Shown one piece after another: positions 9,879 through 33,585 of a stretch of DNA of 37,577 nt. Where the stretch lies: IMG/VR virus record IMGVR_UViG_3300007734_000653, positions 1 to 37,577 of that record; one strand, written 5' to 3'. The DNA is from a virus. The stretch's first letter is position 1; every line of letters begins with the position of its first letter. The notes under the pieces are model-generated. The model worked only from the letters and a program-made list of their open reading frames with translations, was not told where the DNA came from and made no database searches. The translations under genes were made by a program, and so were the position numbers.

Positions 9879-10361
9879 TTAATCAATCTTTACTTTCTTG
9901 GTTTCAGGAATTGTTGGTTTGACTTTTGATAAAGTCACCTTCAACAACCCATTTTCAAACTTTGCACTAGGATTGTTTCTATCGATTTGATCTCCCAAAG
10001 TAAAACTTCGTTTAAAGCTACTATGTTTCAACTCCCTACGAATATACTTTCCAGTTGATTCTCTACCATCGACATTTTTAATCTTTTGACCACTAATGGT
10101 AAGCACGTTCTCTTGTACATCCACAGACACTTCATCTTTGGATAGACCAGGAATTTCAGCTAGAATTTCTACACGGTCATTATAATCAACAACATCTACA
10201 CGGGGATAACTTTGTTTTTCAAAAAAACCAACACCTAACTCTTTATTTAGTTCTGGGAAATGTGCCGCAAATACTTCATCGAATACGCGGTCAAATGGTG
10301 TTAAAAACTCATCACGATCAATGTGTCGCAATGCAAACGGACTATATTTAATTACTGACAT
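9879..10361 (-). CDS. hsp20: Small heat-shock protein Hsp20
   Basis: The protein has 160 residues with a clear alpha-crystallin domain at about 50-145: the PRVDVVDYNDRVEILAEIPG strand pair, VSVDVQENVLTISG, and ENGLLKVTLSK. The C-terminal IPETKK corresponds to the I-x-I/V-type anchoring motif region. Hsp20 holds unfolding proteins as an ATP-independent chaperone, and T4-like cyanophages also carry it, probably to aid virion protein folding. An AAAGG ribosome site lies 8 nt before the ATG, and a TTGACA box sits about 120 nt upstream. The gene is flanked by its own promoter and terminator, so it is a separate unit. Confidence 0.93.
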   Translation of the reverse strand: MSVIKYSPFALRHIDRDEFLTPFDRVFDEVFAAHFPELNKELGVGFFEKQSYPRVDVVDYNDRVEILAEIPGLSKDEVSVDVQENVLTISGQKIKNVDGRESTGKYIRRELKHSSFKRSFTLGDQIDRNNPSAKFENGLLKVTLSKVKPTIPETKKVKID

Positions 10362-14518: not shown

Positions 14519-16891
14519 TTAAGAATAAGAAGCTCCGATTCTATTAATAAGAATTTCACTTCCCATTAATACTATAGAATATAGATCTCTAGCACCATTT
14601 GATGGATTGGTTGCCGATCCACCTGGCCATTTTAATGAATTAGGTGTACCTGTACTCCAAGTAAATGATGTTCCGCCACTATTATTGTAGAAATATAAAT
14701 AACACACTTTCTTCTGTGTAAGATTTACATTAAATGTTTGAGCAGCTGTAGCTGTTAGATAAATCATATCATAATCATCAAAACTCAAATTTGTGGTTGC
14801 AGATGCAACAGTTGCACTAACAGTGGTGTAATCTTTTTGGTAATTTCCTTTAAAAGATCCTGTTATGATGGCACTATCTGTTTTAGAAATATATGATCCA
14901 TTATCAACTTTGATACTTCCATATGAATATATTTTACTGCCGCTAATAGATCCATATGCCCGCATATCACCGCTACTAGATACGTAAAATGTATTTGAAA
15001 AACTACTAGATCCGTATTGTACTAATATCGCTGTTTGTTTGTTTTCTACACCAATAGGCGCCCCACCAACAAATTTACCAGCTAATACTGATCCAGCAAC
15101 GTTAGCAGCCTGATTACTACCGCTAAACATTCTGATTTGCAACTTAGCACGTAAATACTTGTCTATAGAACCAGTTGGCTCGGCTGGAGGTTGTATGCCT
15201 ATACCAACTGAACCATCCCTTGCAGCCGAATTTGTATTAATATATGGCCAGAAGTAAAAACCATTACGTACTTGTTTCAGTGCAACCATCACCCCACCTG
15301 AATCTGATGTTCTTGTTGTAATGGTACTATTTTTAAGATGATATGATCCTGTAGTAATACTTAATGTTAAACTACCACTGGTAACAGATGATATAAACCA
15401 TTGATCTTGATTTGGATATGCAGTTGATCTGTTTTTATTTTGTAATACAAATCCAGCTGAACTATATATGCCAGATCCTCTATTTACTACAAAAAGATTT
15501 GACTGTGCATATTTAGCAGAAGCTGATATATAAAAATTAATTTGTCCAAACTCATTTTTATAAAATAATGGAGATGTTGTTAATCTATTACCGTCAAAGT
15601 ATGGTACAGCACTTGAACTATTTAAAGATCCTTTTAATAAATAAGAGGATGTCAATGAAGTAGTAGATGAATCAGCTGTTATGGCGTTCAAAGCGTTATC
15701 AACTGTACCAAGTACAGTTGAAGCTCTTAATGCGTATGAAGCACTTGTAGTTCTTGTAGAATAACTACTGCTTATAGCTTTACTTGAAGTAAGTGCGTAA
15801 CTGCTTGAGAAAGAGGAATACTTTCCACTTCCATTATAAGAATAACTAGCGGTACCATTTGTTCTTAGATTAGACCAATTCAAATATGAAGATGTATCAG
15901 CGGTAGTTGACATACACATACTTGATGTTTGTGCGTAACTACTGGATAGAGAAGACAATTCACCAACTCCATTGTAAGAGTAACTAGATGTACCTACAAA
16001 TGATGGCGATTGAATATAACCACTAGAATATATAATAGCGGATGTAATATTGTTGAATGTACTAGTGCCTGAGTTAGCTGTTACATTGCCTGTTAATTTA
16101 CCTTTTAAACTACCAGTCATTGAAATATTACCACTACCTGAAAATACTCCTGAGAATCCATTTTTAGAATAGATCTTTGAACCTGATATAATTGAAGGTA
16201 CAATTGTTCCAATTGGAGAATTGTTAATAGTAACATCTCCAACAACACCTGCATTTATAGTAACGTTATCTACCTCAGCATTTACAACGTATAAATTATT
16301 ATTTACGTCTACGTTATTAAAAGAACTTTTACCTGTACCAATTGTTACATTGCCTAATAAACGTCCTTTTACGCTGCCTGTTATACCAATACTAGCTGTA
16401 ATTTGTTCAATCTTAAAAGGTGTGTTTTCAAGATTCAATCCATTTGGATAATCTAAAATTGTTATTTGACTACTTAAAGCATTTCCAGTAAAGCTAATAT
16501 TACCACCGCCTCCAGTTGCCTGATTAACATCTATCGTTTTTGCATAGATTCCCAAAAATGTTGGCGCCGATGGATTGTATCCAATAGTAAGATAATCGCT
16601 TACTATGGCTCTTTTAAATAGATTTGGTACTTTTTGACTTATGACAGAATAGTTGTCACTTTCAAAGCTTCTAAAAGAACCTGTATAAGTGTTGTTTGGA
16701 CCTACAAAATTTAAGCTATTGAATGATGTTAAAAGATCGCCGGTCTTTTGTACAAAGCTATTGACCGTAGATTTTTTAGTTGAATTGCTACTTACATTTT
16801 GTATGATCAAATAATCATTGTTTCCAATATTACCAGATGTTAATGTTGGTAATTCGGGAACGGTTCTACCTTGATTGGATACTATCGCCAT
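14519..16891 (-). CDS. Long tail fibre protein with shared anchor domain
   Basis: The protein has 790 residues. The N-terminus (VPELPTLTSGNIGNNDYLII, then STKKSTVNSFV) is a third version of the anchor domain in the two following genes. The body is Ser/Thr-rich with repeated SSYA, TASYA and SGS motifs typical of extended beta fibres. The C-terminal 100 residues form a compact beta domain (YDMIYLTATAAQTFNVNLTQ) resembling head domains used for binding. There is no S74 chaperone. It leads the fibre cluster and lies 20 nt after phoH. Confidence 0.8.
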   Translation of the reverse strand: MAIVSNQGRTVPELPTLTSGNIGNNDYLIIQNVSSNSTKKSTVNSFVQKTGDLLTSFNSLNFVGPNNTYTGSFRSFESDNYSVISQKVPNLFKRAIVSDYLTIGYNPSAPTFLGIYAKTIDVNQATGGGGNISFTGNALSSQITILDYPNGLNLENTPFKIEQITASIGITGSVKGRLLGNVTIGTGKSSFNNVDVNNNLYVVNAEVDNVTINAGVVGDVTINNSPIGTIVPSIISGSKIYSKNGFSGVFSGSGNISMTGSLKGKLTGNVTANSGTSTFNNITSAIIYSSGYIQSPSFVGTSSYSYNGVGELSSLSSSYAQTSSMCMSTTADTSSYLNWSNLRTNGTASYSYNGSGKYSSFSSSYALTSSKAISSSYSTRTTSASYALRASTVLGTVDNALNAITADSSTTSLTSSYLLKGSLNSSSAVPYFDGNRLTTSPLFYKNEFGQINFYISASAKYAQSNLFVVNRGSGIYSSAGFVLQNKNRSTAYPNQDQWFISSVTSGSLTLSITTGSYHLKNSTITTRTSDSGGVMVALKQVRNGFYFWPYINTNSAARDGSVGIGIQPPAEPTGSIDKYLRAKLQIRMFSGSNQAANVAGSVLAGKFVGGAPIGVENKQTAILVQYGSSSFSNTFYVSSSGDMRAYGSISGSKIYSYGSIKVDNGSYISKTDSAIITGSFKGNYQKDYTTVSATVASATTNLSFDDYDMIYLTATAAQTFNVNLTQKKVCYLYFYNNSGGTSFTWSTGTPNSLKWPGGSATNPSNGARDLYSIVLMGSEILINRIGASYS

Positions 16892-19737: not shown

Positions 19738-19789
19738 AATGGTGGACGCGGGCGGATATTATTTTTTATTAATATCACATCACAATCAC

Positions 19790-19797
19790 TATTTATT
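19790..19797 (+). promoter_or_regulatory. TATTTATT element before the HNH gene
   Basis: CTATTTATTAGTAT directly precedes the ATG. The same TATTTATTAGTAT stretch precedes the nuclease gene at 23047 and, almost unchanged, the one at 33462. Confidence 0.55.
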
Positions 19798-19802
19798 AGT
19801 AT

Positions 19803-20375
19803 ATGGCAAAAACTGAAGTCAGATGTGAATTGTGTAATAAACTTTTTAAAAAAGAAAATAAAGAGATAAATCGTTGTAGAAAACGTGGAATTGGAAATTA
19901 TTGTAGCAACTCCTGTGTGGCTAAACATAGAAACACATCGATGTCTAAAATTTATTGGAAAAAACAATATAAAAAACATCCTAATTTTAGAGGATATACT
20001 CGTCAAGATGAATACTCTCCGTTTAGAACATTTATTAGTAAAGGTAGAGGATCAATAAAGAAAAAAGGATGTACGATTGATGTGAAATATCTTAAAACTA
20101 TATGGGAATTTCAAAATGGTATATGTCCTTATACTGGTATAAAAATGATATTGCCAAAAAATACATTAGAATATAATTCCACTAAATCTCTTAAAAAAGC
20201 CAGTTTAGATCGCATCGATTCATCCAAAGGATATGTAGAAGGAAACTTAGAATTTGTATGTTGTGGTATTAATTTTGCAAAAAACAATTTTACAAAAAAA
20301 GACATGACCTCATTTTTAGATGAAATCATGTCTTCAATGAATGCTCTTAGCGTTACTCAAGTGCAACCAACGTGA
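19803..20375 (+). CDS. HNH homing endonuclease with N-terminal zinc ribbon
   Basis: The protein has 190 residues. An N-terminal zinc ribbon uses C8, C11, C34 and C38. The HNH domain lies at about 95-175: CPYTG at 108-112, then SLDRIDSSKGYVEGNLEFVC and NFAKNNF. Such free-standing nucleases cut a target site and spread by repair. The gene ends 21 nt from the 3' end of the tmRNA gene and is tail-to-tail with it, so the tmRNA locus is the likely home site (inference). Confidence 0.88.
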   Translation: MAKTEVRCELCNKLFKKENKEINRCRKRGIGNYCSNSCVAKHRNTSMSKIYWKKQYKKHPNFRGYTRQDEYSPFRTFISKGRGSIKKKGCTIDVKYLKTIWEFQNGICPYTGIKMILPKNTLEYNSTKSLKKASLDRIDSSKGYVEGNLEFVCCGINFAKNNFTKKDMTSFLDEIMSSMNALSVTQVQPT

Positions 20376-20396
20376 AGGTGGCATTCTTATGCACTT

Positions 20397-20778
20397 TGGA
20401 CGCGGCGAGAGTCGAACTCGCGTCTTTAACAGATAACTTACATCAGACTACACGCTTATATATTTTGAATTGTTAGGAAGTAATAATGAAAAATATCTAA
20501 AAATATTACCCTTAAGATTTACTAATATCTCGACCATTTACGCAAATCAAATATTTGGTCCAGTCCAATAATTTACACCCAACACAACTATCAGACTTTA
20601 TTGTATTGAATGTGCAACAACTTAGGCTGCAAGGGCTACTACTTCATCGTAAGAGAAGTCATAGCTAACTACGTTATCTTCAGCAGTTAATGTTTCGATA
20701 GATGTATTAAAGAGGCCAACTATCATCCTCTACGTGCCTAACATACGTGTACTATTAAATCGATACCAGTACGCGCCC
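20397..20778 (-). ncRNA. ssrA: tmRNA (ssrA) with a 20-residue tag
   Basis: The tRNA-like ends pair as GGGCGCG / CGCGTCC with a G3:U70 pair, the alanyl-tRNA synthetase identity element. The T arm is GCGAG-TTCGACT-CTCGC and the 5' part has CTGGTATCGA. The tag frame runs from GCT at 20684 to the TAA at 20622-20624 and reads AEDNVVSYDFSYDEVVALAA. The ALAA end is the usual ClpXP signal. tmRNA rescues stalled ribosomes and tags the product. No 3' CCA is encoded. The length is 382 nt. Phage tmRNAs are known but uncommon. Confidence 0.93.
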
Positions 20779-20807: not shown

Positions 20808-22139
20808 TTATCCAAATACTTTATATTTCTTAGAATCAAAAATGTGAGTCTCCCAACCCACCACATATTCACTATAGTGGTTTAGCCATCGATGCCATCC
20901 TTTACCTATCCATAACTCACACGCCATACGATGGTCTGACATATCTCCATTATACATCGTATCTACAAAAGTCAACGATAAATTTGGCAATCTATTTATA
21001 TATTCACAATCACCCCACCAAAAATTACCAGAATAATAATTTCTATATTCTTTTTGCGGACTAACGTAATGTGTAATATACAATCCACCTACAACATCAT
21101 AATTTTTAGTCTTTAATACGTCAACAGATTTTTGCCAATTATCTATGTTTAGATATTCTAAACAATCACGCCAAGACTTTATTGATTCTGTTTGTATTAC
21201 TTTAGATGTTCCTTTTGAATGATAATATAAAACACACCCATTAGGATTTAGCTTACAGTAATTCTGCAAATTAATTAATGTATTATATTCAAATTTATTT
21301 ATGGTATAACGAACAACTTTTATTTTTGCATCTTTATCATAAGAATCTACTATCTTAAGAAAATTATAATATTCTTCATCTGATTCTGAATATACACCGC
21401 AAAAATAATGATCACATCTATTGTATAATCCAGACTTAACCACTCTTTCAAATTGATTTTTTATTATAGATACCCAATCATTTTTAAGATAATTGTGAGA
21501 AAATACTGACACAGGATAATTTTTAACTATTCCAATTCCACCCCAAGATTCGTATCTTTGGTTCTTCATAATCGAATGAAATAAATTATCGGTAGAATAA
21601 TCGTTCGTAGCTTTATCCGATATAAATTCGTAACTGTCTATATATTGAGTTTTGATCTCACTCCAAAACTTACTTACAAAAATATTGTTGCCTTCATTTT
21701 CAGGACTTGATACAACATCGTGAAATCCTAAATAACCATCTGAATTTAATAATTGCTTAAACTTTAAATAATCAGATTTTACTCCATTATATGAATGATC
21801 ACCGTCTATAAAAATAAAATCAAACTTAATATTGAGCGATTTTAAATAATTAATTGTATCATTGCTGGTTGAATCTGAAATTATATATTCGTAATTTGAA
21901 TATTTGTTTTTGAGCAAGTCAAAATTAGAGTTGTGTTTTATGTCAATAGTTATAACTTTATCAAACAATTCACACAATCCAGCTGCAAAACCACCATAAT
22001 TAGATCCTATCTCAAGTGCAATTCTTTTTTTGGAGTTTGCATTCAAAAAATCCAATAAAGATTTGAATTCTTCGGGTTTTTGTTCAATGTTAAATTGTAA
22101 ACAAGACTCCCATATCTTTGGGAAATTATAACCATTCAT
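20808..22139 (-). CDS. Fusion of SAM methyltransferase and glycosyltransferase-like domains
   Basis: The protein has 443 residues. Residues 38-165 form a class I methyltransferase: ALEIGSNYGG (41-50) is the SAM loop and IDGDHSY (111-117) is typical of the Methyltransf_24/cephalosporin hydroxylase group. Residues about 205-440 form a second domain with LYYHSKGTSK (304-313), SWRDCLEYLN and GNFWWGD, as in a family of bacterial glycosyltransferase-like proteins (memory-based). It probably modifies sugars on virion or host surface. The gene lies between tmRNA and tRNA-Gly on the same strand. Confidence 0.75.
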   Translation of the reverse strand: MNGYNFPKIWESCLQFNIEQKPEEFKSLLDFLNANSKKRIALEIGSNYGGFAAGLCELFDKVITIDIKHNSNFDLLKNKYSNYEYIISDSTSNDTINYLKSLNIKFDFIFIDGDHSYNGVKSDYLKFKQLLNSDGYLGFHDVVSSPENEGNNIFVSKFWSEIKTQYIDSYEFISDKATNDYSTDNLFHSIMKNQRYESWGGIGIVKNYPVSVFSHNYLKNDWVSIIKNQFERVVKSGLYNRCDHYFCGVYSESDEEYYNFLKIVDSYDKDAKIKVVRYTINKFEYNTLINLQNYCKLNPNGCVLYYHSKGTSKVIQTESIKSWRDCLEYLNIDNWQKSVDVLKTKNYDVVGGLYITHYVSPQKEYRNYYSGNFWWGDCEYINRLPNLSLTFVDTMYNGDMSDHRMACELWIGKGWHRWLNHYSEYVVGWETHIFDSKKYKVFG

Positions 22140-22147
22140 AATAAAAT

Positions 22148-22221
22148 TGGAGCGGGTAGCCGGAATCGAACCGGCACATCGACCTTGGCAAGGTTGCAGG
22201 CTACCACTACATCATACCCGC
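22148..22221 (-). tRNA. tRNA-Gly(GCC)
   Basis: The acceptor GCGGGTA pairs with TACCCGC, the loop is TTGCCAA, the T-loop is canonical TTCGATT and CCA is encoded. Confidence 0.92.
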
Positions 22222-30753: not shown

Positions 30754-30796
30754 ATTGAAAAATAATAATTTTGGCGATATTAAACATTCTCGTTCA

Positions 30797-30804
30797 TATT
30801 TATA
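30797..30804 (+). promoter_or_regulatory. Late-promoter-like TATTTATA before the 30810 nuclease
   Basis: The element ends 5 nt before the ATG at 30810 and decides that start over the upstream ATG at 30771. Confidence 0.55.
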
Positions 30805-30809
30805 ATTGT

Positions 30810-31661
30810 ATGAAGAATATAACACCCACAGATAAAATTGTCAACTTAAAAAGTAGAGATCCAATTGAACTTGAATGTTATGAATGTAAATCAACTTATC
30901 AACACGCAAAACATCGTTATTTATGTTATAAACTTAAAGGAAAATTATCAGGATGTTTTTGCACACAAAAGTGTGCTATGACATACAAAAATAAATTAAA
31001 AAATATAAATACTAAATGTGAATATTGTAAAAAAGATATTACTAAAAGTTTGAATCAATATAAAAAATCTAAATTACATTTTTGTTCAACTTCTTGTTCC
31101 GCAACACATTGGAATAAAATTCACCATCCTATTAGAATAACAAAACCAAAAATAAAAAGAACGGTAAAACTACCTATATTATTAACTTGTACAAATTGTT
31201 CAAATCAACATTATAGAAAATATTATAAATCAAGTAAAAGTGGTACTAATTTTTGTACTAGATCTTGTCAATCAATTTATGCAAATAAGACTTGGAATAA
31301 GTCTTCTAGATTTGGAATAAATAAAAGTCGTTGTGAAACTATATTAAAAAATATTATTTTAAATGAATTTCCAAATTTACAAATTATTGAAAATGATAGA
31401 ACTACAATTAAAGGCGGATTAGAAATAGATTTACACATACCAAGCAAAAATGTTGCGATTGAATTAAATGGGCCCTGTCATTATATTCCTATATTTGGTA
31501 CAAAAGAACTAGAAAAAACACAAAATAAAGATTTATTAAAAATTGAGTATTGTCAAAATAATAATATTAAACTTTTTGTAGTTAATGTGATGGGATTAAA
31601 AAATCAAATACAAACATTAACTGATGTATTTAATACTACACTAAAATCACATTTAGTATGA
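30810..31661 (+). CDS. Zinc-ribbon Vsr/PD-(D/E)XK-type homing endonuclease
   Basis: The protein has 283 residues from the ATG at 30810. Three tandem Cys modules occur at C23/C26 with C51/C55, C70/C73 with C92/C96, and C127/C130 with C149/C153. The nuclease domain at about 165-265 has GLEIDLHIPSKNVAIELNG (E205, D207, E218), then LLKIEYCQNNNIKLFVV, as in Vsr-like EDxHD-type homing enzymes. The Cys modules are close relatives of those in the 22232-23047 and 19803-20375 proteins. It is inserted between tRNA-Ile and tRNA-Asp. Confidence 0.82.
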   Translation: MKNITPTDKIVNLKSRDPIELECYECKSTYQHAKHRYLCYKLKGKLSGCFCTQKCAMTYKNKLKNINTKCEYCKKDITKSLNQYKKSKLHFCSTSCSATHWNKIHHPIRITKPKIKRTVKLPILLTCTNCSNQHYRKYYKSSKSGTNFCTRSCQSIYANKTWNKSSRFGINKSRCETILKNIILNEFPNLQIIENDRTTIKGGLEIDLHIPSKNVAIELNGPCHYIPIFGTKELEKTQNKDLLKIEYCQNNNIKLFVVNVMGLKNQIQTLTDVFNTTLKSHLV

Positions 31662-31664
31662 AAG

Positions 31665-31736
31665 CCCTCCATACGAGACTCGCACTCGTTACTACATCGT
31701 GACAGGATGTTATGATAACTCATTCAACAATGGAAG
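31665..31736 (-). tRNA. tRNA-Asp(GTC), A18:G55, no CCA
   Basis: The acceptor is CTTCCAT/ATGGAGG with an unusual C1:G72. The anticodon loop is CTGTCAC, the T-loop TGCGAGT on ACGAG/CTCGT, and the D-loop ATGAGTTA. It starts 3 nt from the nuclease stop. Confidence 0.78.
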
Positions 31737-32278: not shown

Positions 32279-32420
32279 GATGTATGGTTGGAATCGAACC
32301 AACGGCTATCTTTACAACCATTATCATATGATAAATGGGAAATTTTACAACCTGACATAAGATTTTTGTGGGCTTATCCCATAGTCAGGTACTCTGCTCT
32401 AACCACTGAGCTACATACAA
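32279..32420 (-). tRNA. tRNA-like gene with a long central insertion
   Basis: A tRNA 5' part (TTGTATG acceptor, D arm GCTC/GAGC with AGTGGTTA) and a 3' part (GTTGG-TTCGATT-CCAAC, CATACAT acceptor) are 142 nt end to end. The middle holds a 7-bp stem (ACCTGAC / GTCAGGT), a CCATT/AATGG hairpin and two GGTTGTAAA copies. No anticodon can be assigned. It is either a disrupted tRNA or one with an intron-like insert. Confidence 0.5.
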
Positions 32421-32654: not shown

Positions 32655-32777
32655 CTCCAGAGGAGGGTTTCGAACCCCCAACCCTGCGGTTAACTTTGGC
32701 CTTATGAGATTTGCACTCTCTATTAAATAATACTTTATGGCCCACAGCCGCATGCTCTACCATTGAGCTACTCTGGA
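32655..32777 (-). tRNA. tRNA-Asn(GTT) interrupted by a 51-nt insertion
   Basis: The acceptor is TCCAGAG/CTCTGGA with G73 and no CCA. The D-loop has GG and the T-loop is TTCGAAA. The anticodon stem TGCGG/CCGCA is perfect, but the loop holds an extra 51 nt (32693-32743). Removing it leaves CTGTTAA, the standard Asn loop. GT is present at both junctions. Confidence 0.78.
32693..32743 (-). other. 51-nt intron-like insertion in a tRNA-Asn anticodon loop
   Basis: It begins GGGCC and ends GGCCAAAGT on the minus strand. The GGCC ends can pair, enclosing hairpins TATTA/TAATA and GAGA/TCTC in a three-way junction. It is far too short for a standard group I or II intron. Confidence 0.6.
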
Positions 32778-32784
32778 ATTGAAA

Positions 32785-33462
32785 TCATTTACATACTCTA
32801 CCTTTAGTATAACCGTTTGTCAAGTATGTTTGTAATTCTTCTTTTTTAATTTTAAGATTTTTATTTGTTGTAGAATGATATACCCAACAAGTTCCATATT
32901 GAGAATTTTTTGCACCGGATTGTGCTACTTTTAATTTTTCCCCAATTTTCTTTTTTGTATCATCTTTATGTTTTCTACCGGTCCAATGAAAACCATCTCG
33001 TTTCCATTTTTCTTTTAAAGATGATGATATTTTTTCTTTATACTTATCAAATAATCCGTGTTCTATCAAAAATTGTTTCATTTTATCTCCAGGTAATAAA
33101 TTTTTTCCTCCGTGATTAATATCACCATTTTGTCCATATAAATTTTTACCAGATTCATTTATATATGAATACCCTCCACAACCACCTTCCATAATATTGT
33201 ATGTATTATCTGATTCAATAAATAATTGATTTACTATTTCTTTTTCTTTAGCAAACATTTCTTCAGCGGTATCAAATATAAACAAAACTTCTTTTACAAA
33301 ATTCGACTCTTCATATTTTTCCATTGCTCTTTTAAAAAGTTTACCGGACCCCATATAATTATCATATGGATTTTTTGTTTTATGCATTCCAATATAAACT
33401 TTGTTATTAACTTTATTGGTTGTCTTATATATTGTGTATTTGAAATCTAGGTTCGTGTCCAT
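32785..33462 (-). CDS. GIY-YIG homing endonuclease
   Basis: I place the start at the ATG at 33462 because TATTTATTAGT directly precedes it, as before other nuclease genes here; an upstream ATG at 33480 would lie inside that element. The 225-residue product has the GIY-YIG core at about 9-27 (YTIYKTTNKVNNKVYIGMH), a catalytic Glu region (AKEKEIVNQ) and NIMEGGCGGYS. Its C-terminal HTGRKHKDDTKKKIGEKLKV resembles NUMOD3 DNA-binding modules. It lies between two tRNA-Asn genes, one of which has the anticodon-loop insertion. Confidence 0.88.
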   Translation of the reverse strand: MDTNLDFKYTIYKTTNKVNNKVYIGMHKTKNPYDNYMGSGKLFKRAMEKYEESNFVKEVLFIFDTAEEMFAKEKEIVNQLFIESDNTYNIMEGGCGGYSYINESGKNLYGQNGDINHGGKNLLPGDKMKQFLIEHGLFDKYKEKISSSLKEKWKRDGFHWTGRKHKDDTKKKIGEKLKVAQSGAKNSQYGTCWVYHSTTNKNLKIKKEELQTYLTNGYTKGRVCK

Positions 33463-33465
33463 ACT

Positions 33466-33473
33466 AATAAATA
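33466..33473 (-). promoter_or_regulatory. TATTTATT element before the GIY-YIG gene
   Basis: Minus-strand TATATTTATTAGT, 3 nt before the chosen ATG. Confidence 0.5.
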
Positions 33474-33513
33474 TAGACACGAACTATCAAAATATATTTT
33501 ATTTTGACGAAAG

Positions 33514-33585
33514 CTCCCCCAGAAGGACTCGCACCTTCACCGAACTGGGTAACAACCAGCCGTGCTACTTTGACACTACAGGGGA
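33514..33585 (-). tRNA. tRNA-Asn(GTT), A18:G55, no CCA
   Basis: The acceptor is TCCCCTG/TGGGGGA with G73, and the anticodon loop TTGTTAC. The T-loop is TGCGAGT and the D-loop TCAAAGTAG. Confidence 0.82.

Follow-up and report, generated by a model that had tools for sequence, protein, structure and literature searches.

A virus record of 37,577 nt from IMG/VR, analysed as a whole and here called the window (37.6 kb), probably encodes a working phage tmRNA that borrows the SmpB of its host and whose gene has been reshaped by homing and recombination. In the reading that we favour, the one-piece RNA would be charged with alanine via G3:U70, would rescue stalled ribosomes together with host SmpB and would append a tag of 20 residues that ends in an ordinary proteolysis signal. 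A putative homing endonuclease cassette has entered the T-arm; it carries a T-arm and an acceptor 3' strand that complete the tmRNA, and what remains of the native 3' end now lies beyond the endonuclease gene. Across the wider phage group, the tRNA-like domain (TLD) has repeatedly switched as a whole, 5' and 3' strand together, between two alleles, A and B, of which B has a T-stem of 6 bp and a T-loop with G55. The tag and pseudoknot core that these alleles flank is nearly constant, and recombination during co-infection by different phages is the probable source of the exchange. Phage tmRNAs as a class are not new, since 402 phages with a tmRNA were counted in a 2021 survey (PMC9004378) and tmRNAs were also reported from huge phages (PMC7162821). 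Yet they are little explained, and near-identical phages that differ in the TLD amount to a natural experiment. Neither an invaded 3' end nor TLD exchange was found in the literature, in a limited search of open-access text.

Table 1. Features at the tmRNA gene of the window
Feature	Position	Strand	Basis
tmRNA gene, G1 to discriminator A73, 3' CCA not encoded	20397..20778	-	ARAGORN; Rfam RF00023; 51 complete homologues aligned
Acceptor 5' strand GGGCGCG; 7/7 pairs with CGCGUCC including G3:U70	20772..20778	-	Pairing check
Tag reading frame, 20 codons + UAA, AEDNVVSYDFSYDEVVALAA	20622..20684	-	ARAGORN, sequence; pN/pS 0.25 over 17 haplotypes
Extra hairpin within the tag-coding stretch (AGCUAUGACUUC...GUAGUAGC), upstream of helix 5	20634..20666	-	Folds, codon table
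Helix-5 hairpin UGCAGC-CUAAGUU-GUUGCA, stop codon UAA in loop	20613..20631	-	Sequence, alignment, fold
Cassette-supplied T-arm GCGAG-UUCGACU-CUCGC and acceptor 3' strand CGCGUCC-A	20397..20421	-	Unlike native arm of closest relatives
Inserted cassette, ~665 bp, inside T-arm of tmRNA gene	19757..20421		74% DNA identity over length to L060 cassette, same site
HNH/endonuclease VII-like putative homing endonuclease gene, 190 aa, antisense to tmRNA	19803..20375	+	PHROG matches; 69% identical to L060 copy
Displaced native tmRNA 3' end TCCGCCCGCGTCCACCA, then native downstream flank	19740..19756	-	Identical to 3' ends of L026, L031, L037
Methyltransferase-domain ORF, 443 aa, between tRNA-Gly and tmRNA	20808..22139	-	Pfam PF13578, E 1.7e-12
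tRNA-Gly(GCC), upstream neighbour of tmRNA in many relatives	22148..22221	-	ARAGORN

The window was proposed, in a sequence-only reading, to hold a tmRNA gene with G3:U70, and this is borne out. ARAGORN located a one-piece tmRNA, RF00023 covers it in full length (112.2 bits with a gathering score of 47, E 2.9e-43, model positions 1–374), the acceptor pairs throughout (Table 1) and the T-stem is paired in 5/5 positions; both anatomy and pairing can be read directly from the letters. Relatives were collected as 69 IMG/VR loci from a PhoH search and as 54 contigs carrying the tag core, found by scans of the relatives and a tag-pattern scan, and 51 complete tmRNA genes (36 distinct) were aligned. 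The alanine identity elements G3:U70 and discriminator A73 are kept in 51/51 of these and the tag core is in frame in every one of the 54 contigs; the observation is therefore not due to chance. With the one-piece tmRNAs of bacteria and phages (RF00023) the gene has in common the G3:U70 acceptor, the T-arm, the long P2 helix and the tag ORF, and as in ordinary tmRNAs the stop codon lies in the loop of helix 5. It differs from them in its 20-residue tag, its extra in-frame hairpin and a 3' CCA lost to the insertion, while the wider phage group differs in having the TLD as two exchangeable alleles. The conservation argues for a working phage tmRNA, and we infer that it is expressed, charged with alanine and used with SmpB. 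No SmpB gene was found in 13 phage records (incomplete genomes), and the RNA therefore presumably works with the SmpB of its host. T4-like baseplate and PhoH genes are present in the window, and T4-type capsid and terminase genes in larger relatives, the related phage sequences all being metagenomic contigs. In one relative, L006, the spacing between tRNA-Gly and tmRNA is just 22 nt.

The claim that the tag is unusually long holds as well, its 20 codons being about twice the 10 residues that are the commonest bacterial tag length (PMC11915505). The length arises because approximately 30 nt, forming a small hairpin, precede in frame the helix 5 that carries the stop codon in its loop. The family consensus is A[EK][DE]NV[VI]SYDFSY[DE][DEN][VT][VAGT]A[LIV][AV]A, and in one group of relatives the tag is shorter by one residue through in-frame loss of a codon. 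A pN/pS of ~0.25 across 17 haplotypes indicates purifying selection. In the same haplotypes no base varies in tag codons 7, 9, 10, and 11 (AGC, GAC TTC TCT). Within the tag all bases of GACTTCTCTTA are fixed, wobble positions included, and adjacent codons vary synonymously; the fixed wobble bases suggest a constraint at the RNA level. In the window the frame closes in the helix-5 loop after a hydrophobic Ala-Ala end. The [LIV]AA end of the family presumably fits ordinary ClpXP-type proteolysis rather than a new destination, although redirected degradation of stalled products had been suggested as a possibility.

A degenerate pattern of the tag core, N[VI][VI]SYDFSY[DE], gave 0 matches in 84,980 bacterial and archaeal genomes, and tag matching therefore does not indicate a host. 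Of the earlier interpretation the real tmRNA with a long tag thus stands, and the suggestion that the tag may match that of the host, and so reveal the host, is not supported. The endonuclease insertion and the TLD exchange, which are more informative, had escaped the sequence-only reading. The tags of Bacteroidia tmRNAs, taken for comparison (n = 30), are different and mostly of 8–10 codons (e.g., GENNYALAA), and the tag was rejected as a host marker. Matches to the tag core in IMG/VR are confined to one phage group as far as visible, nearly all of the 54 contigs being recognisable as members of it. In INPHARED the tmRNA gave only short chance matches (blastn), and the window protein encoded at 14519–16891 gave no match. 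Capsid and terminase of the relatives come closest, among cultured phages, to those of Microcystis phage Mel-JY01 and Flavobacterium phage immuto; as the identity is just 49–59%, the host was not assigned from them. Flavobacterium phage immuto has no tmRNA match, and Microcystis phage Mel-JY01 has a weak partial one below the cut-off.

The 3' part of the tmRNA gene is interrupted by the cassette (Table 1). Beyond the endonuclease ORF comes TCCGCCCGCGTCCACCATTTTATTCTGG..., which matches the native 3' end of close relatives exactly, and the 150 bp downstream of this remnant are 99% identical to L004 and L031. The displaced native 3' end followed by the native flank shows that the cassette was inserted in the T-arm, giving the gene a different T-arm and acceptor strand that pair fully; the native T-arm, as found in the closest relatives L026, L031, and L037, is GGCGG-UUCAACU-CCGCC. 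It is because of this insertion that the tmRNA lacks the 3' CCA encoded by most other tRNAs of the window, and the mature 3' end would have to come from nucleases and the CCA-adding enzyme of the cell. The encoded protein matches PHROG profiles of endonucleases (3322, endonuclease, E 3e-19; 1035, endonuclease VII, E 5e-11; 3118, HNH, E 4e-10) and has no match in Pfam. A foreign 3' end, an endonuclease ORF and a displaced native 3' end are thus all three present in the window, with a second case in the 303-kb phage contig L060, which has a homologous cassette at the same tmRNA site with its own remnant CCCCACGTCCACCA. In L060 the cassette strand UACGUCC pairs 7/7 with GGGCGUA, while the remnant strand CACGUCC would give an A-C mismatch. 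This anatomy supports the capture of the 3' end of a tmRNA gene by a homing-type cassette, of which the homing activity and the cut site remain putative. The cassette is known from these two contigs, which may reflect either separate insertions or an old common descent followed by losses; both have type-A genes, and n = 2 is too few to tie A/B switching to homing. A 29-base pattern from the tmRNA-side flank of the cassette has its only other IMG/VR site in the L060 contig. A search of IMG/VR with the endonuclease protein confirmed no relatives; as the same search missed the L060 copy it is not a complete census.

The layout of the window corresponds to that of fungal mitochondria, where mobile endonuclease ORFs replace the 3' ends of atp6, atp9, cox2, and nad3 (PMC3630166), leaving likewise a foreign 3' end, an endonuclease ORF and a displaced native 3' end. 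The fungal elements, however, invade protein genes and encode LAGLIDADG or GIY-YIG enzymes, whereas here the target is a phage RNA gene and the ORF is of HNH type and antisense; a strategy documented for mitochondrial protein genes would in this way extend to the 3' end of an RNA gene. SegB of T6 (PMC13096335) is, like the window enzyme, a homing endonuclease tied to phage tRNA-type genes, but it amplifies the tRNA genes that it lies beside, whereas the window endonuclease gene sits inside the gene for the tmRNA, whose 3' end it has replaced.

Among the 51 contigs the TLD is of type A, as in the window, in 28 and of type B in 21, and two are A5'/B3' hybrids. Type-A genes have the ends GGGC.../...GUCC, and their 12 distinct acceptor/T-arm combinations are all 7/7 and 5/5 paired with G3:U70 and A73. 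Type B has the acceptor GGGGAUG/CAUCUCC, a 6-bp T-stem and the loop UGCGACU, so that neither its T-loop nor its stem length is the usual one. The tmRNA core around either type is 92–97% identical among close relatives. When the window (A) is compared with L004 (B), identity is 98% in the upstream 60 bp, 62% in the 5' TLD, 95% in the core, 74% in the 3' TLD and 99% in the downstream 150 bp, to be read against a mean of 55–56% for shuffled TLD ends in gapped alignment. The well-supported branches of the PhoH tree imply at least six changes of TLD type, and the PhoH genes of L006 (A) and L009 (B) do not differ at any base. The ends are matched, A5'-A3' or B5'-B3', in 49/51 contigs, and because both strands switch together the acceptor stays 7/7 paired in A and in B; in the hybrids, L008 and L066, it is 5/7 paired. 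Allele switching is plain as a pattern, and recombination is its probable mechanism. The hybrids may be real recombinants or recombination intermediates, or else assembly chimeras, since the shared core exceeds a typical short read.

The T-arm of type B is also found in bacteria. A B-style T-arm pattern had 28 matches in genomes, of which 21 are tmRNA-like genes with a 6-bp stem (6 confirmed by Rfam), and the bacterial genes belong to Chloroflexota (Dehalococcoidia, SAR202) and Bacillota. The TLD of these tmRNAs is of the same style as phage type B, as seen from L168 (GGGGACGCGTAGGTTCGACA) and L003 (GGGGATGCGTAGTTTCGACA), but in phage type B it is joined to the core and tag of the phages, and the window itself is type A. 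As bacterial tmRNAs have the same style, type B was rejected as a phage invention, and since its pairing and G3:U70 are kept, it is unlikely to consist of dead copies. None of the complete type-B genes was reported as a tmRNA by ARAGORN, and such genes are consequently likely to be under-reported.

It might be argued that the RNA does not work as a tmRNA at all and instead acts as a decoy, tying up SmpB, EF-Tu or AlaRS of the host and so dampening the host's own trans-translation. Phage DS6A, whose tag-less tmRNA is inhibitory as cited in PMC11915505, provides a precedent, and the huge phage LR756508 has, besides a full tmRNA, a tmRNA-like locus that at 112 nt is too short to hold a tag. The window tmRNA is not of the tag-less DS6A type, however, as it has a conserved 20-codon tag, and a decoy would need neither the tag frame nor the stop-in-loop helix nor the [LIV]AA end that purifying selection maintains; we regard a decoy as improbable. 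More improbable still is that the A/B mosaic arose mostly during assembly, from mixed strains sharing a 300-bp core. Although the core is longer than typical short reads and k-mers and two hybrid contigs exist, 49/51 contigs from many metagenomes have matched ends with 7/7 acceptor pairing, and random joining would yield many A-B and B-A hybrids, of which B-A was found in none. Least likely of these, and in our judgement very unlikely, is that the insertion represents an intron or a genomic island of the integrase type and not a cassette whose endonuclease gene comes with a restored 3' end. Both are known invaders of tmRNA genes, group I introns occurring in the T-loop and islands often integrating at the gene (PMC11915505); with these introns the cassette shares the T-arm as the invaded site, and some of them carry homing endonuclease genes. 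These introns are, however, spliced out, and their endonucleases are of the LAGLIDADG kind, whereas the cassette provides a replacement 3' end and an HNH/endonuclease VII-like enzyme. As a complete T-arm and acceptor strand are supplied before the endonuclease ORF, splicing is not needed, and no group I intron or other intron family is among the Rfam matches in the window; a group I intron was rejected accordingly. The unit of ~665 bp, with an antisense endonuclease ORF alone and no integrase, does not resemble an island.

For the working tmRNA reshaped by homing and recombination, the force that selects TLD swaps may be sought in homing endonucleases, host nucleases or the fit to a new host. 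A driver of the homing-endonuclease or host-nuclease kind is plausible because tRNA-targeting defence and tRNA-associated homing endonucleases both exist in the phage world (PMC13096335). It is tempting to speculate, and we do so with some doubt, that the TLD is a swappable module under arms-race selection, both strands being traded, and tag and pseudoknot core kept, so as to escape agents that target the domain, either the HNH cassette acting on DNA or a host nuclease acting on RNA. With the same reserve, one of the traded TLDs might be of a kind rare in bacteria, in which acceptor and T-arm stack to 13 bp and the elbow is altered. A somewhat better but still minor chance is given to selection by host factors acting on the RNA, i.e., a tRNA/tmRNA nuclease or the fit to SmpB, AlaRS and EF-Tu of another host, instead of homing endonucleases acting on DNA. 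The tRNA-cutting defence Septu and the counter-adaptation of phage tRNAs are on record (PMC13096335) and type B alters the elbow of the RNA (T-loop UGCGACU, 6-bp T-stem), but the sole invader seen acts on DNA at the T-arm. Selection by host factors concerns the driver only and is compatible with the rest of the preferred explanation. Two questions become testable, namely whether conflicts among phages, or between phage and host, have the phage tmRNA as a target, and how far the TLD can change and still be accepted by SmpB, AlaRS, and EF-Tu.

Other RNA genes of the window and of its relatives may be recorded here. tRNA-Asp (31664–31736) and tRNA-Asn (33513–33585) are, like the tmRNA, without an encoded CCA, and genes resembling homing endonucleases adjoin their 3' ends, as at the tmRNA (30771–31661 and 32785–33480, respectively). 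No displaced 3' remnants of the two tRNAs were found by eye, without an uninterrupted relative for comparison. A 123-nt tRNA at 32655–32777 (-), matched by Rfam (52.5 bits) and not listed by ARAGORN, resembles tRNA-His(GTG) except for ~50 extra nt at the anticodon loop, fewer than a usual group I intron would need. At ~32280–32420 (-) lies another tRNA-like sequence, enlarged by additional bases in its anticodon/variable region; its homologues in L139 and L105 are 87–93% identical over 150–176 nt and keep these bases. The full tmRNA of the uncultured 484-kb phage LR756508.1 (L194, 92434–92880) has a possible tag of ~33 codons ending in AAV, and the tag-less locus of that phage (L196, 414804–414915) is reminiscent of phage DS6A. 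Finally, a gene for an Hsp20-like small heat shock protein (PHROG 432, E 2e-23) lies between structural genes of the window at 9879–10361 (-).
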